Shown here in pieces: positions 31,293-35,844 of a stretch of 44,008 bases of DNA. The translations under genes and the position numbers were made by a program. This DNA is from a virus, in IMG/VR virus record IMGVR_UViG_3300036781_000832, positions 1-44,008 of that record; one strand, written 5' to 3'. The number at the start of each line of letters is the position of its first letter. Position 1 is the first letter of the stretch. Below the pieces are notes generated by a model that saw nothing but the letters and a program-made list of their open reading frames with translations, was not told the origin of the DNA and searched no databases.

Positions 31293-31326
31293 TCCTCCAA
31301 CGCCGGACCACCCCGGCTTGGAGGAA
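31292..31326 (+). promoter_or_regulatory. Inverted repeat covering the first early ribosome site
   Basis: TTCCTCCAA (31292-31300) pairs perfectly with TTGGAGGAA (31318-31326), with an inner GCCGG/CCGGC stem. The right arm contains the Shine-Dalgarno of the gene at 31330. A transcript that starts at pL (about 31299) would lack most of the left arm; one reading through from upstream would have it. Confidence 0.5.
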
Positions 31327-31329
31327 GCC

Positions 31330-31644
31330 ATGGGCACCGCCCCGCTCCAGATCGCCACCATCACCTCTGTCATCGCCGAGTCGGCCGAGTACATCGGCTA
31401 CCACGAAGCGAAAGAGAACGATGAAGGCGCCACCCCGATTGCCGAGGCCCTTATCGCCGCCGGTGCGCGGGTCGAGGCGATGATCGCGGTGGTCACCCTC
31501 ACCAAGGCGCTGCTCGACCAGGGTGTGTCCGGCGACTTCGGGCTGCTGGCCCAGCTGCGCGCCGCCGTCGCCCGCGCCGAGTCTCTGCCCAACACCCGCG
31601 AACACTGCGAAGCCATGGCCCTCGCCGCACAGGTGACCCCATGA
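31330..31644 (+). CDS. First gene of the early rightward operon, unknown
   Basis: A 104-residue, Ala-rich helical protein (IATITSVIAESAEYIGYHEA, LIAAGARVEAMIAVVTLTKA). GGAGG five bases upstream of ATG 31330. It follows pL directly, where lambda encodes N, but it is acidic and lacks an Arg-rich motif, so an N-type antiterminator is unlikely. ATGA overlap with the next gene. Confidence 0.7.
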   Translation: MGTAPLQIATITSVIAESAEYIGYHEAKENDEGATPIAEALIAAGARVEAMIAVVTLTKALLDQGVSGDFGLLAQLRAAVARAESLPNTREHCEAMALAAQVTP

Positions 31645-31715
31645 GTCGGCTTCTCTGCCTCGCCTTCGTTTGCGGCGTCCTGGGCGCCCTCGGCCGCGCG
31701 GTGGGCCTCGTATGA
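31641..31715 (+). CDS. 24-residue membrane micro-protein
   Basis: The frame MSRLLCLAFVCGVLGALGRA plus VGLV is almost one membrane helix. It is linked by ATGA to the gene before and by ATGA to the gene after, so ribosomes would pass through it in sequence. It fills exactly the space between two real genes. Function unknown. Confidence 0.6.
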   Translation: MSRLLCLAFVCGVLGALGRAVGLV

Positions 31716-32020
31716 GCCGCTACTCCGACGCCCAGTACACCGACGCCATCGAGGAAATGATGGACATGCCGCGTTACATCGCGGACTTCATCTTCGACGG
31801 CGCCGGGACGGAAGAAGTGGTCCGCCTCCTCCTGAGCCGTGGCCTCCCCTTCCGCGACGGCACCGCCCGCGACGGCCGCTTGCTCGACAAATACAACGAG
31901 CAGATCGACGCCCTGAAGGCCGCTTTCACCAAGTTCGCCCACGAAGGCAAGAGCGCAAAGCGCGCCAGCCGCGTGGACGAGTACCTCGACTACCGCACCC
32001 AGATGGAGGATGCCGCGTGA
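31712..32020 (+). CDS. Hypothetical early protein
   Basis: A 102-residue helical, acidic protein (YTDAIEEMMDMPRYIADFIF, EEVVRLLLSRGLPFRDG, EQIDALKAAFTKFAHEGKSA). No family recognised. It starts in an ATGA overlap and ends in a GTGA overlap, so it belongs to the tight early operon behind pL. Confidence 0.7.
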   Translation: MSRYSDAQYTDAIEEMMDMPRYIADFIFDGAGTEEVVRLLLSRGLPFRDGTARDGRLLDKYNEQIDALKAAFTKFAHEGKSAKRASRVDEYLDYRTQMEDAA

Positions 32021-32175
32021 AGCGCAATCCGAAGATGTTCCGCTGCCGCCTCGTCCGCTTCATCGACGGCGCGCAGCAGGTGATCACCTACGTCGGCCCG
32101 TACGACGGTATCCCGAAGGGATGGTCGATGTTCGCGCGCCGCGTTGTCGGGCCGAGCGGGGGTATGGCGGCATGA
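32017..32175 (+). CDS. 52-residue basic micro-protein
   Basis: GTG start in a GTGA overlap. The product KRNPKMFRCRLVRFIDGAQQ, VITYVGPYDGIPKGWSMFAR is basic and beta-like, with a plausible compact fold, and ends in an ATGA overlap with the next gene. It fills the entire gap between its neighbours. Unknown function. Confidence 0.65.
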   Translation: MKRNPKMFRCRLVRFIDGAQQVITYVGPYDGIPKGWSMFARRVVGPSGGMAA

Positions 32176-32393
32176 GTACCTGCAAATGTTTCGACGAGAT
32201 GAACGCACGGCTGAAGCCACACAACGCGCAGATCACGCACGGCTTCGCCATATCGGAAGGCTTGTCGCGTCTCCGCCTCACGTACTACGTGCAGACCGAG
32301 AAACTCGACGCCAGCGTGCGTAGCAAGAAGCCGCCGCTGGTGGTCATGTCGCACTGCCCGTTCTGCGGCGCGCCGTTGGATGAAACGGAATGA
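32172..32393 (+). CDS. Small zinc-binding-like protein
   Basis: A 73-residue protein, MSTCKCFDEMNARLKPHNAQ, ending VVMSHCPFCGAPLDETE. The CKC near the N-terminus and CPFCG near the C-terminus could together bind zinc. This pattern (CKCFDEMN...HCPFCG) recurs in small phage proteins of unknown role. ATGA overlaps at both ends. Confidence 0.75.
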   Translation: MSTCKCFDEMNARLKPHNAQITHGFAISEGLSRLRLTYYVQTEKLDASVRSKKPPLVVMSHCPFCGAPLDETE

Positions 32394-32539
32394 GCGCTTT
32401 CGACCGCTACCTCACCGAAGTCGCCATCGCTGCGCAGAAGCGCCGCCCGATGACCACCGCCGAATGGCAAGCACTGGGCGCTGGCATCGGCGTCCCTCTC
32501 GTCTTCCTTCTCTTGCTCGTCGCTTTCTCGCCGCATTGA
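32390..32539 (+). CDS. 49-residue membrane protein
   Basis: SAFDRYLTEVAIAAQKRRPM, TTAEWQALGAGIG and the hydrophobic VPLVFLLLLVAFSPH end: a cytoplasmic helix and one C-terminal membrane helix. It starts in an ATGA overlap and is the last gene before a long untranslated stretch. Confidence 0.65.
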   Translation: MSAFDRYLTEVAIAAQKRRPMTTAEWQALGAGIGVPLVFLLLLVAFSPH

Positions 32540-32877
32540 AACACTGAGCGGAGCGCCCAGCCGGCGGTGGCGCAATCAGTAACACCGGCAGTGATTGCTA
32601 CGCAGGGGTTCCTCTACCTGCGGGTCTGCGACCTGACTCTAAACCCGGAAGGCCGGGTGGGTAATGCGAGAGCGAAGTCGGAAGCGGCAATGCGGAGTTT
32701 TCCAACCACGTAGGCCTTCACCTCGCCGCCCCGTCGAGTAGCACGGGGCACAAGGAAGAGCCTGGATACATGGGTGTCGGCCCAACAGCCCCGACAGGCT
32801 CCCGATAAGACGCTTCGGGCCGGGCTCTTCCTTGTCCACCTCACAGCACGCCGACTCACGTCGGCAAGGAATTTGAC
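32540..32877 (+). ncRNA. Structured untranslated leader RNA 1
   Basis: No gene is supported in these 338 bases, but they are full of stable stems. Seen stems are GCAATCA/TGATTGC (32572-32598), CGCAGG/CCTGCG (32601-32622), ACCCGG/CCGGGT (32643-32658) and GCCCCGT/ACGGGGC (32728-32749). A 12-pair closing helix CAAGGAAGAGCC/GGCTCTTCCTTG (32751-32834) encloses TGTCGG/CCGACA. The last part carries the hairpin-Shine-Dalgarno module of the KTSC gene. It may be a processed small RNA or a regulatory leader. Confidence 0.45.
32842..32870 (+). promoter_or_regulatory. Hairpin-Shine-Dalgarno module, copy 1
   Basis: CACAGCAC, then GCCGAC-TCAC-GTCGGC (32850-32865), then AAGGA directly against the stem, seven bases before ATG 32878. 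The same order occurs before the RecT and Ala/Ser-repeat genes. Confidence 0.6.
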
Positions 32878-33144
32878 ATGACGAAGAGCACCGATATCCC
32901 GCTGACGCCCGTGGAGTCCTCTCAGATTCACAGCATCGGCCACGACGCCGAAACGAACACCCTGGCCATCCGCTTCAAGAACTACCGGGGCGAGGCCACG
33001 AGCCTCTACCACTACGACAACTTCACCACCGACGACTTCGCCGCGTTCCGCGACGCCGAGTCCATCGGGAAGCACTTCGGCCAGCACATCAAGCCTGCGA
33101 CCGAGAAGCACCCCTTCCGCAAGGTTGTGCAGTTCGAAGGCTAA
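32878..33144 (+). CDS. KTSC-domain protein
   Basis: An 88-residue protein. IHSIGHDAETNTLAIRFKNY, TSLYHYDNFTTDDFAAFRDA, ESIGKHFGQHI and HPFRKV match the KTSC domain, named for the lysyl-tRNA synthetase C-terminal region where it also occurs and common in phages next to recombination genes. Function not known. It has its own structured leader on each side. Confidence 0.88.
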   Translation: MTKSTDIPLTPVESSQIHSIGHDAETNTLAIRFKNYRGEATSLYHYDNFTTDDFAAFRDAESIGKHFGQHIKPATEKHPFRKVVQFEG

Positions 33145-33328
33145 AGCTTTTACGGAGCGGAACGCGGAAGGCACCGCATCGGACTGATCCCCGAGTGTCA
33201 GGCACCGGGCTAGTAACCCGGCCAGCCAGGAACAACAGGCGACATAGCGCGCCTGCCGACAGCAGGAAACGCCCCTGCCCGCTCCACCTCTCTCACAGCA
33301 CGCCGGCGCCGCCGGCCAAGGAATCCAG
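33145..33328 (+). ncRNA. Structured untranslated leader RNA 2
   Basis: No gene is supported. Stems seen: CCGGG/CCCGG (33205-33221) and CCTGC/GCAGG (33252-33266), enclosed by GGAGCGG/CCGCTCC (33154-33285). The closing helix is followed, as in leader 1, by CCACCTC...CACAGCACGCCG and the hairpin-Shine-Dalgarno module before the RecT gene. Confidence 0.4.
33293..33322 (+). promoter_or_regulatory. Hairpin-Shine-Dalgarno module, copy 2
   Basis: CACAGCAC, then GCCGGC-GCC-GCCGGC (33302-33316), one base, then AAGGA, six bases before ATG 33329 of the RecT-like gene. Confidence 0.6.
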
Positions 33329-34099
33329 ATGAACGCCTCCGCTACACAGCAGGTCGCGGTCGCAACGCAGCCCCGGCAACAGCTCGACCTCAGCCCGCAG
33401 ACCTTCGACCAGGCGATCCAGTTCTGCGACTACCTCGCCGACAGTGACCTCGTACCCAAAGACTTCAAAGGCAAGCCGGCCAACTGCCTGATCGCGATCC
33501 AGTGGGGCGCGGAGCTTGGTCTGAAACCGCTCCAGGCAATCCAGAACATCGCGATCATCAATGGCCGTCCCGCGCTGTGGGGTGACGCCGTCATCGCCCT
33601 CGTTCGCAGCTCTCCGCTGTGCGAGTACGTTCGAGAATCGGAGGACGGCAGCACGGCCGTGTGCCGCGTGAAGCGCCGTGGCGAGGATGAGGAGGTCCGC
33701 ACGTTTAGCGTCGAGGACGCGAAGACCGCCGGGCTTCTCGGCAAGTCCGGCACGTGGACGCAATACCCGAAGCGCATGCGGCAGATGCGTGCCCGCGCGT
33801 TCGCGCTCCGCGACGTGTTCCCCGACGTCCTGCGAGGCATTCCCATCGCCGAAGAAATCATGGACATCCAGCAAGGCGATGGACAGCGCGCGGTCACCGT
33901 GCGCGCCGAACCGGCCGCCTATCCGGCGGAGGACTTCGAGCGAAACCTGCCCGTATGGCTCAAGGCCATCGCTGATGGCCGTCGAACCGCCGACGACCTC
34001 ATTGCCATGGCTGAAACCAAGGGCAGTCTCACCGAAGAACAGAAGAAGCTCATACGCGGCGCGAACAAGCCCGCTGATGACACGGGGTCCGAACAATGA
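33329..34099 (+). CDS. recT: RecT-like single-strand annealing protein
   Basis: A 256-residue protein. FCDYLADSDLVPKDFKGKPA, NCLIAIQWGAELGLKPLQAI, QNIAIINGRPALWGDAVIAL and PKRMRQMRARAFALRDVFPD form the core of the RecT family found in siphovirus- and myovirus-type prophages. It anneals complementary single strands during phage recombination and works with the exonuclease that follows. ATGA overlap with that gene; hairpin-Shine-Dalgarno module before the start. Confidence 0.85.
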   Translation: MNASATQQVAVATQPRQQLDLSPQTFDQAIQFCDYLADSDLVPKDFKGKPANCLIAIQWGAELGLKPLQAIQNIAIINGRPALWGDAVIALVRSSPLCEYVRESEDGSTAVCRVKRRGEDEEVRTFSVEDAKTAGLLGKSGTWTQYPKRMRQMRARAFALRDVFPDVLRGIPIAEEIMDIQQGDGQRAVTVRAEPAAYPAEDFERNLPVWLKAIADGRRTADDLIAMAETKGSLTEEQKKLIRGANKPADDTGSEQ

Positions 34100-35844
34100 A
34101 AATCCATAACTTGATCCAAGGCACCGACGAGTGGGCGGCGTTCCGCCTGAATCACCACGGCGCGAGCGAAGCCGCCGCCATGCTCGGCCTTTCGAAGCGG
34201 ACCACCCGCTCGGAACTGCTGCGCATGAAGCACACCGGCACGCCCAAGGAATTCAGCGACTGGGTGCAAGAGAACATCCTCGACTACGGACACGCGGTGG
34301 AAGCCATGGGGCGGCCGCTCGTCGAAGAACTTATCGGCGATGAACTTTACCCCGTGACCTGCTCCGACGAAGACGTCGGCGGCCACCTGTCGGCTTCGTG
34401 CGACGGCCTCACCATAGCGGGCGACACCGCCTTCGAGCACAAGCAGTGGAACGCCGAACTGGCCGCCGCCGTCGCCGCCGGCACCGTGCCCGACGATCAC
34501 ATGCCGCAGTGCCAGCAGATCATGATGATTACCGGCGCTGATCGTGTGATCTTCACCGTGTCGGACGGCACGCCGGATAACTTCGTCTCGACCGAGGTGC
34601 GGCCTGATCCCGCGTGGTTCGAGCGCATCGTCGACGGCTGGGCTCAGTTTGACCGCGACCTGACCGACTACACACTGCCCGAGCAGAAGCCGATGCTGGT
34701 GGCTGAATCCGTGCAGGCACTGCCCGCCGTCGCCGTGCAGGTCATCGGTCAGATATCCGTCAGGGAGAACTTCAACGCGTTCGAGGTGGCCCTGCGCGAC
34801 TTCCTCGCCAACAAGCTGATCCGGGAACCGCAGACCGATCAGGACTTCGTTGACCTCGATCAGCAGATCAAGGCGATGAAGAAGGCCGAGGACACGCTCA
34901 ACGCTGCCGAGGCGATGATGCTCGCCCAGGTCGAGAGTATCGACCAGGCGAAGCGCCAGAAGGACATGCTCGCCAAGCTGGTCCGCGACAACCGCCTCAT
35001 GGCCGAAAAGCTGCTGGAGAGCGAGAAGACCCGCCGCCGCCAGGAGCGCATCGAGGCGGCTCGCAAGGCCTACACGGCTCACGTGACCGACCTGCAGTCC
35101 ACCCTGACCGGCCTCCGGCTCGACGTGGCGATGCCCGACTTCGCCGGCGCCATCAAGGGCCTAAAGACGCTCAGCAGCATCGACGACAAGCTCGACACGG
35201 CGCTGGCGAATGGAAAGATCGCCGTCGATCGTCAGGCGAACGAACTGCGCACCAAGCTGGCATGGGTGGAGGCCAATGCTTCGGAGTACCGCGCTCTGCT
35301 CGCCGACCTGCAGCAGCTGTCCGTGAAGCCTCTGGACGACTTCAAGCTGGCGATCACCGCGCGCATCGATGCCCACAAGCGGGCGGAGGAAGCTCGCCTC
35401 GAAGCCGAGCGGCAGCGCATCCGCCAGGAAGAGGCCGACAAGCTCCGGCTTGAGCAGGAAGCGGCCGCCGCTGTGGCTGCCCAGGCCGAGGCCGATGCTG
35501 AAGCCGAGCGGCTGGCTGCGCGCGATCCCGAGCCTGTCGCGCATTCGGAACTTCCGGTCGAGTCGCCCGTGCCGGTCCCCGCCGTGGTCTACCGCTCTGC
35601 CGCGCGCACCGTTGAGTCGCCCCTGCCCAGTGCTGGTCCAGCCAAGACCATCAAGCTCGGCGACATCAACGCCCGCATCGGGCCGCTGTCGATCACCGCT
35701 GACGGCCTGGCATCCCTTGGCTTCCATCCGGTGGGCACCGAGCGCGCGGCGAAGCTCTACGCCGAAAGCGACCTGATCGCCATCTATCGCGGCCTCTACG
35801 GCGTGATCCAGAACGCCGCCAACGAACTGAAGAAAGCGGCCTGA
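34096..35844 (+). CDS. YqaJ-type exonuclease with long C-terminal coiled coil
   Basis: A 582-residue protein. The first 210 residues are a YqaJ-type exonuclease: IQGTDEWAAFRLNHHGASEA, YGHAVEAMGRPLVEELIGDE, GHLSASCDGLTIAGDTAFEH and EHKQWN, giving the Glu, Asp and ExK metal site. From about 240 a long helical, charged region follows, with a dense coiled coil near 430-470 (RAEEARLEAERQRIRQEEAD), a Pro-rich linker and a small C-terminal domain (LGDINARIGPLSITADGLAS, LGFHPV). Lambda Exo has only the nuclease part; the tail may join exonuclease to RecT or DNA. Confidence 0.85.
   Translation: MKIHNLIQGTDEWAAFRLNHHGASEAAAMLGLSKRTTRSELLRMKHTGTPKEFSDWVQENILDYGHAVEAMGRPLVEELIGDELYPVTCSDEDVGGHLSASCDGLTIAGDTAFEHKQWNAELAAAVAAGTVPDDHMPQCQQIMMITGADRVIFTVSDGTPDNFVSTEVRPDPAWFERIVDGWAQFDRDLTDYTLPEQKPMLVAESVQALPAVAVQVIGQISVRENFNAFEVALRDFLANKLIREPQTDQDFVDLDQQIKAMKKAEDTLNAAEAMMLAQVESIDQAKRQKDMLAKLVRDNRLMAEKLLESEKTRRRQERIEAARKAYTAHVTDLQSTLTGLRLDVAMPDFAGAIKGLKTLSSIDDKLDTALANGKIAVDRQANELRTKLAWVEANASEYRALLADLQQLSVKPLDDFKLAITARIDAHKRAEEARLEAERQRIRQEEADKLRLEQEAAAAVAAQAEADAEAERLAARDPEPVAHSELPVESPVPVPAVVYRSAARTVESPLPSAGPAKTIKLGDINARIGPLSITADGLASLGFHPVGTERAAKLYAESDLIAIYRGLYGVIQNAANELKKAA

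Follow-up and report, generated by a model that had tools for sequence, protein, structure and literature searches.

We analysed a 44,008-base virus record, IMG/VR IMGVR_UViG_3300036781_000832 (the whole of it is called the window here), around a 338-nucleotide gap that lies on the plus strand between an open reading frame (ORF) of 49 amino acids and the gene for a KTSC-domain protein. This first gap is a mosaic and not a single RNA. It begins with a predicted pseudoknot that resembles the Rfam family Proteo-phage-1, and near its 3′ end it carries a domain, designated S2, that represents a small, real, covarying RNA family without a match in Rfam 15. Downstream, the KTSC gene and recT are separated by a second gap, which holds an element with the geometry of a tRNA, probably a divergent member of a class of phage RNAs that we designate S1. 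Our tentative reading of the two gaps, which we hold with somewhat less than even confidence, is that they are docking places for exchangeable tRNA-like RNA cassettes that would be cut from the early mRNA and act in trans. The components of the first gap and the ORF on its 5′ side are as follows.

32390–32539: ORF of 49 amino acids, the 5′ border of the first gap
32540–32877, plus strand: first gap, 338 nucleotides, between the 49-amino-acid ORF and the KTSC gene
32553–32589, plus strand: predicted Proteo-phage-1-like H-type pseudoknot, stem GCGCC 32553–32557/GGCGC 32569–32573, loop GCCGG 32560–32564 pairing with CCGGC 32585–32589
32592–32727, plus strand: middle stretch, with stems at chance level
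32729–32835, plus strand: S2, a hairpin CCCCGT..ACGGGG (32729–32734/32743–32748) and a 16-pair helix (32750–32765/32820–32835) around a variable interior
32850–32877, plus strand: KTSC leader hairpin, stem 32850–32855/32860–32865, directly 5′ of the ribosome-binding site AAGGAA 32866–32871

Fold stability of the first gap

The minimum free energy of each piece was compared with that of 200 dinucleotide shuffles; pseudoknots are not scored by this test. The whole gap gave z −2.36, with 3 of 100 shuffles equally good, and S2 contributes most of this. On its own, S2 folds at −57.7 kcal/mol against −38.6 ± 3.7 kcal/mol for its shuffles (z −5.13, 0 of 200 equally good). The middle stretch gave z +0.20 (118 of 200 shuffles equally good), and the region 32544–32600 did not rise above its 200 shuffles (z +0.66) in this test, which is blind to pseudoknots. 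Because the flanking pieces match their shuffles, the excess stability of the gap is located in S2 alone; 32544–32600 may still matter, since the test ignores pseudoknots. An earlier note on this DNA had proposed a single RNA over 32572–32834 with at least five perfect stems. The single RNA is rejected, its middle being as stable as shuffled sequence. As for the stems, S2 is above chance and the remaining ones are, in this test, no better than shuffles.

The same note had described the gap as untranslated, and this holds. Four ORFs within or across the gap matched 0 PHROGs families, tblastn of the longest sense ORF against phages returned no match, and the lengths of S2 homologues (96–108 nucleotides) break the frame, so a hidden gene is rejected. 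A short ORF within S2 (ATG at 32771) was likewise considered and is absent, by eye, from two contigs with S2 homologues (L240 and L003).

S2 is a covarying RNA domain

The hairpin and the long helix of S2 are separated by one base. The helix had been noticed before as 12 pairs at 32751–32834; it is confirmed and in fact comprises 16 pairs, one of them G-U. A scan of viral contigs with the conserved stretch of S2 returned seven stretches, and five of these contain the whole domain (L003, L240, L243, L244 and L245); L241 and L242 carry the stretch without it. In an alignment of six sequences, five of them distinct, 96.4% of the cells are paired. Both sides are changed at 4 of the 16 pairs of the helix, with 6 cells changed on both sides among the five distinct sequences; sliding the 3′ arm by 1–3 columns left 0–1 double-changed pairs and 0–1 double-changed cells. 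The outer helix, ACAAG.AAG/CTT.CTTGT, is conserved in sequence and the inner helix covaries. The interiors differ in kind and length. The earlier note had held that its proposal would fall if homologous regions showed no compensatory changes or were freely lost: compensatory changes in the helix are present among the S2 homologues, and the element is freely absent elsewhere, with near-empty slots in L004 and L020 and S2 in only five other IMG/VR contigs.

The family appears to be small. A covariance model of S2, run over 100 sources (1.09 Mb), recovered the six known members, their reverse strands and one match at E 0.88, and none that was new. A related junction pattern occurred in 63 stretches, with the partner arm in only 4. 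GTDB genomes yielded one stretch in the S2 scan, on an Aeoliella contig, and plasmids yielded no S2 match. A blastn comparison of the first gap with phages returned matches to the pseudoknot part, a single weak one in a Gordonia phage, and no others. What follows S2 varies between loci: a second element beginning TAC-GGCAG stands directly after it in L003, L243, L244 and L245, and in the window and L240 S2 is succeeded by the next gene's leader.

The pseudoknot at the 5′ end

The pairing at 32553–32589 was read by eye from sequence, with 4 distinct sequences available. The Rfam model of Proteo-phage-1 (RF03044) aligns to 32525–32593 with 21.6 bits (E 0.0028 over the 44 kb with this family as the only model). 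By reading of the sequence, the window has what may be the hairpin of the family, with a loop GCCGG (AGCCGG) that would pair to a downstream CCGGC; it differs in that the score is below the cut-off of 42 and the match spans only the first 40–70 nucleotides of the gap. By blastn, the same 40-nucleotide motif recurs outside coding sequence in Cronobacter phage JK004 (E 3e-4) and Synechococcus phage S-SRP01 (E 1e-2), and weak matches (E 2) lie in non-coding DNA of Pseudomonas phages F116 and LKA5. The best place of RF03044 is the same spot in JK004 (13.9 bits, E 0.36) and in S-SRP01 (12.1 bits, E 0.44), and the model has no match in F116 and LKA5. Since 4 of 14 control genomes also score at E ≤ 1, single scores prove little, and the argument lies in the agreement of places. 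Judged in this way, the predicted pseudoknot is Proteo-phage-1-like and not a member of the family.

The earlier statement that no named RNA family fits the gap thus stands at Rfam cut-offs, where no family was reached in the whole 44-kb window at gathering thresholds, and gives way at the 5′ end, where Proteo-phage-1 matches below threshold. The family reportedly derives from a 2017 survey; its name was not found in the literature searched, subscription papers lying outside that search. In JK004, a tRNA-like sequence (L253, 461–584) with about 50–57 extra bases before the T-arm, scoring 27.7 bits against the Rfam tRNA cut-off of 29, stands directly upstream of the Proteo-phage-1-like motif.

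A tRNA-shaped element between the KTSC gene and recT

The earlier note had placed its 338-base gap before the KTSC gene, where we find it, in an operon that it took to be otherwise gapless. The latter is contradicted by the structured gap directly downstream.

32878–33144, plus strand: gene for the KTSC-domain protein, 88 amino acids (Pfam PF13619, E 1.2e-15)
33145–33328: second (recT) gap, 184 nucleotides from the KTSC gene to recT, untranslated and structured
33154–33288, plus strand: tRNA-geometry RNA, putative divergent S1 element, acceptor GGAGCGG 33154–33160/CCGCTCC 33279–33285
33164–33177: D-like arm of this element
33262–33278: its T-like arm, GCAGG-AAACGCC-CCTGC, abutting the acceptor
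33286–33288: its ACC tail; TTTTAC lies immediately 5′ of the element
33302–33328, plus strand: recT leader, hairpin and ribosome-binding site
33329–34099, plus strand: gene for a RecT-like single-stranded DNA annealing protein (phrog_561, E 1.1e-70)

A descriptor of tRNA geometry (7-bp closing helix, D-like arm 2–3 nucleotides inside it, abutting T-like arm and ACC tail) fits a single place when both strands of the 44 kb are scanned, 33154–33288. The background is a mean of 0.15 per shuffled window (60 shuffles), and shuffling the gap itself 20,000 times gave 0 fits. The element is also more stable than its shuffles (z −3.29, 0 of 200 equally good). On the plus strand the consensus of the S1 5′ end has its best place here, with one equally good place on the minus strand; for the S1 3′ end the element is tied best with one other place in the window. 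Its position between KTSC and recT, its tRNA geometry, its ACC tail and, less clearly, the matches at its two ends argue that it is probably a divergent S1 member. BLAST against phages gave scattered weak matches, with E 2–7 among the matches listed. Inside the element, CCGGG-CUAGUAA-CCCGG (33205–33221) forms a 5-bp stem with a 7-nucleotide loop, which we take to be the form of an anticodon arm, with U33 and a purine at 37.

Each of the two gaps ends with one copy of a 33-nucleotide leader repeat (32840–32872 and 33292–33324, 76% identity). The sequence shared by these leaders is CTCACAGCACGCCG..GGC(C)AAGGAAT, with a hairpin just 5′ of the ribosome-binding site. Leaders of the same kind occur in L002, L003, L004 and L240, and an exact-match search of viral contigs for the repeat gave nothing. 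The plus-strand genes of the region comprise a CI-like repressor (29513–30235), small early ORFs, KTSC, RecT, a RecE-like exonuclease and a DNA methylase. A scan of 30000–34500, limited to sites of the sigma-70 type, found no promoter-like site.

Structure of the S1 class

S1 elements are modelled as a 7-bp acceptor helix with two hairpins, one D-like and one T-like, that are joined by loop-loop pairing as at the elbow of a tRNA; a hypervariable interior takes the place of the anticodon and variable arms. In related recT loci a looser descriptor recovered the same geometry with conserved ends, GGAGAGG-AA-TGCGCAGGCTGATGCGC...GCCGG-AGATCAGCA-CCGGC-CCTCTCC-ACC; as it gave 4 antisense matches against 19 sense matches, a single match of this kind carries little weight. 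With broader scans, these D and T modules were also seen beside other acceptors, in total 92 distinct elements with a closing helix and 34 different acceptor 7-mers. The closing helix measures 7 bp in 43 of the 92 and 8–9 bp in 32, and interiors range from 33 to 166 nucleotides. A scan with the D module found the T module downstream in 98 distinct sequences, a few of them chance (e.g., L162, L168 and L183), and 52 occurrences without it.

In an alignment of 18 S1 elements, 99.7% of the cells pair. Acceptor pairs 1–6 all have changes on both sides, and the alignment contains 41 double-changed cells, where slid controls contain 2–8. The loops GCUGAU/AUCAGC are invariant in this alignment because the search demanded them. 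When GCTGAT was not demanded, five rows were found that keep the GCCGG/CCGGC T-stem yet lack GCTGAT, and in all five the loops are complementary (GGUGAU/AUCACC in L082 and L190, UUGC/GCAA in L075, L078 and L079). By eye, L062 has the loop pair UGGUG/CACCA. Other rows lacking GCTGAT are mostly non-complementary, as chance gives for so loose a pattern.

Strand counts point the same way for the anchored model. All 28 S1-model matches with E ≤ 0.013 in the 100 sources lie on the coding strand, and the first opposite-strand match has E 0.044. An unanchored scan for kissing loops gave 109 coding and 165 opposite-strand matches overall, with 10 against 0 in the subset with an ACC tail. Rfam 15 had no match (E ≤ 0.5) at the S1 places of L010, L032, L040 and L056, and in 16 other sources it returned tRNA and SIB matches only.

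Slot occupancy, exchange of interiors and spread

The slot between KTSC and RecT was surveyed in 81 loci, namely 80 RecT loci and the window, of which 26 have a KTSC homologue within 1,200 nucleotides upstream of RecT. An S1-type element lies between the two genes in 15 of the 26 (14 of the 25 others when the window is set aside), some of the S1 coordinates having been set by hand and L067 containing only the 3′ half. L004 and L020 have near-empty slots, that of L020 being 60 nucleotides long and without an element. Other slots carry different hairpins, for example GCCGGAGACGTAACCGGC. A recurrent hairpin module, GCCGGAGACGTA(A/C)CCGGC, was seen in the slots of L024, L028, L034, L038, L055 and L060, in some followed by ACC.

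The interiors fall into 69 clusters, 13 with multiple members, and 7 of these 13 are found with at least two acceptors. Interiors are 97% identical between L119 and L188 and 95% between L045 and L054, and their 20-nucleotide flanks are 15–25% identical, those of L119 and L188 15–20%. By eye, the interior type of L032 and L117 recurs in L062, which has loops of a different type. As like interiors occur with different acceptors and flanks, the pattern suggests that each acceptor is tied to its site and that interiors travel between phages by way of the conserved D and T modules.

By sequence match, S1 is widespread among the phages and prophages of Proteobacteria. One S1 element used as a blastn query matched 179 phage records at E ≤ 10. 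Among the most frequent are phages of Pseudomonas, Klebsiella, Escherichia, Salmonella, Erwinia, Aeromonas and Burkholderia, with phages of Acidovorax and Xanthomonas also present, and the 40 matches listed fall mostly where there is no annotated gene or in unannotated records. A second query with an enteric flank matched 510 records, many by the flank only or by chance. A 40-nucleotide enteric S1 query was found in 621 of 5,426 complete Escherichia coli genomes, and none of the 30 matches listed lies under an annotated feature. In the three E. coli prophages inspected, S1 stands between an antitermination gene and a holin gene (L326, 2501–2640) or between an XRE repressor and yfdP (L327 and L328, both 2501–2640); it is absent from prophage CPS-53 of E. 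coli K-12. Among plasmids, 691 records match at E ≤ 10.

Several S1 elements adjoin phage tRNA genes. Scraps of tRNA (T-arms GGTTCGATTCC and pieces of D-arm or anticodon arm, some scrambled) were also noticed by eye, downstream of S1 in the recT slots of L035, L045 and L050 and in the interiors of L056, L122 and L225. The interior of L225 appears to hold a whole tRNA.

How the elements may act

The cassette reading builds on the folds, their covariation, the conservation of the slot and the turnover of interiors, all of which are observed, and would add cutting, release and action in trans. In its substrates, RNase P recognises the elbow together with the stack of acceptor and T-arm, and it base-pairs with the ACC tail. 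Under this reading the first gap would be a docking place holding the Proteo-phage-1-like pseudoknot and S2, and its sister gap would hold the tRNA-shaped RNA. Enzymes of tRNA processing would cut the early polycistronic mRNA at these folds, RNase P at ..UAC|GG.. with ACC as its 3′ contact, and a double-strand RNase would cut at S2. Excision by tRNA-processing enzymes seems the likeliest route because the slot elements show RNase P features after a conserved AC. Short stable RNAs would be freed, and their interiors, as decoys or sponges, could act on host factors in trans; the S1 interior would be the part under diversifying selection, as expected for a decoy or sponge. The downstream mRNAs would then begin with a protective hairpin just 5′ of the ribosome-binding site.

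A broader form of the proposal, to which we give slightly less credence, is that Proteobacterial phages share a plug-and-socket RNA system made of a kissing-elbow scaffold, swapped payloads and release by the host, with the S1 element of the window a divergent member and the S2/Proteo-phage-1 gap a neighbouring socket. The conserved scaffold sequences would let phages pass payloads among themselves in the way that they exchange defence and counter-defence genes.

Several results weigh against the cassettes. The S1 covariance model gives the element of the recT gap 6.3 bits (E 0.28 in 1.2 kb), which is top-ranked and not significant, and the element is not among the S1-model matches to E 5 in the 100-source search. 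The complementarity of its D-loop AAGGCA and T-loop AAACGCC is only GGC/GCC, and the kissing-loop scan (at least 4 bases) has no match there. There is no Rfam tRNA (RF00005) call for the window, and ARAGORN found 0 tRNAs in all of it. In the class at large, ACC follows the acceptor directly in 22 of the 92 elements, as it does in the window, and is absent from most; some helices reach 16–19 bp, which makes them less apt for RNase P. The S1 model reaches 2.3 bits at best within S2, so that S2 is not S1 by model or by sequence, and the mechanisms of the two gaps may differ. The counts for swapping and for the slot come partly from related phages.

We consider it unlikely that S2 serves the KTSC gene only, as a cis switch or processing site whose formation or cutting sets KTSC translation. 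The 3′ arm of S2 contains TTCCTTG, which could pair with the KTSC ribosome-binding site CAAGGAA, and the 5′ arm has the same CAAGGAA and would compete. The stretch 32828–32839 is complementary to 32860–32871 (duplex −12.3 kcal/mol), and the sixth helix pair differs with the arrangement: in the two homologues with S2 immediately before the leader (the window and L240) it is a G-C that agrees with the ribosome-binding site, and in the three distinct ones where another element intervenes (L003, L243 and L244) it is a mismatch. However, S2 at −57.7 kcal/mol is far more stable than this duplex, so the switch would need cutting or kinetic trapping. Moreover, any arm bearing AAGGA complements a ribosome-binding site, the downstream gene varies between loci, and the comparison is of only two cases with three.

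An equally improbable account would make the conserved ends mainly recombination linkers at the DNA level, with folds that only stabilise or space the mRNA and interiors that are junk in turnover. Interiors are indeed swapped between differing flanks, L004 and L020 have empty slots, and the genes for RecT and RecE lie directly downstream. This reading is disfavoured because pure linkers would not need RNA pairing, whereas pairing is kept across the 34 acceptor 7-mers, loops covary and the strand bias is 28 of 28.

Least probable of the three, in our estimate, is that the elements help RNA polymerase across long untranslated stretches, by antitermination or anti-Rho action that is put-like or linked to boxA, and that no product is released. 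GCTCTT or CTCTTT, which we take to be boxA-like from the presumed consensus, occurs within 30 nucleotides upstream of 11 of the 92 S1 elements (e.g., L149, L160 and L172), against 1.0% of 5,000 random 30-mers. Nearly all of these sites accompany enteric-type acceptors, however, and the link belongs mostly to one enteric lineage. The prophage S1 between antitermination and holin genes fits this account, as does the pseudoknot motif of F116, which sits in an early-operon leader. So does the late leader of lambda (L257 700–808, between Q and S), which has the same flank, AGTGCTCTTTCCGTTGTG.TGAAT, with a closing helix TTGTGCTG/CAGCACAA; L257 has neither S1 modules nor an S1-model match. Such aid to transcription would leave a hypervariable interior within a conserved frame unexplained. 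A put-like antiterminator was among the options of the earlier note, and identity with the put RNA of phage HK022 is not supported: the gap lies inside the operon after several genes, with no promoter-like site of the sigma-70 type in 30000–34500, unlike putL and putR, which lie downstream of early promoters (PMC9378689, in the sections available).

Comparison with known systems

If the cassette reading is correct, many phages and prophages encode a class of tRNA-like RNAs in which the frame is fixed and the interior free, a class that ordinary homology search would have missed because of that interior. In addition, the class would be nature's equivalent of the tRNA scaffolds with which recombinant RNA is produced. 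We found no description of the S1 module sequences, or of phage tRNA-like, kissing or decoy RNAs of the S1 kind, in the literature searched, which did not extend to subscription papers.

The elements resemble tRNA and tmRNA in the 7-bp acceptor, the D-like and T-like arms at tRNA spacing and the ACC tail. tmRNA has a long insert in the position of the anticodon arm, as these elements do. They differ from tRNA in having AAACGCC or AGAUCAGCA in place of the tRNA T-loop and, in S1, a 6-bp pairing between loops.

Phage T4 encodes two RNAs beside its tRNA genes, RNAC (species 1) and RNAD (species 2), of 139 and 119 nucleotides, which are tRNA-like and processed by RNase P. RNAC ends, as read from its sequence, in a T-arm-like sequence. 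Unlike S1, they are without conserved D and T modules and without a known family of swapped interiors, and the S1 model, run on the T4 stretch L252 with E up to 5, finds nothing. Their functions were described as yet unknown in the available part of one account (PMC9697503). The S1 class, if the reading above holds, would give a handle on this long-open question of what stable phage RNAs of the RNAC/RNAD type do, since its payload swaps are natural experiments that could be repeated in laboratory E. coli.

The put RNA of HK022 measures about 70 nucleotides, forms two stem-loops and belongs to a phage early operon (PMC9378689, in the sections available); S2 differs in lying inside an operon after several genes and in its variable interior. 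The anti-sRNAs AgvB and AsxR of lambdoid prophages are encoded downstream of the Q-controlled promoter PR′ (PMC4104026, in part). They are 51–60 nucleotides long with highly conserved 3′ regions, and the portion of that paper available does not mention a tRNA-like frame. Some S1 elements occupy this same region downstream of PR′.
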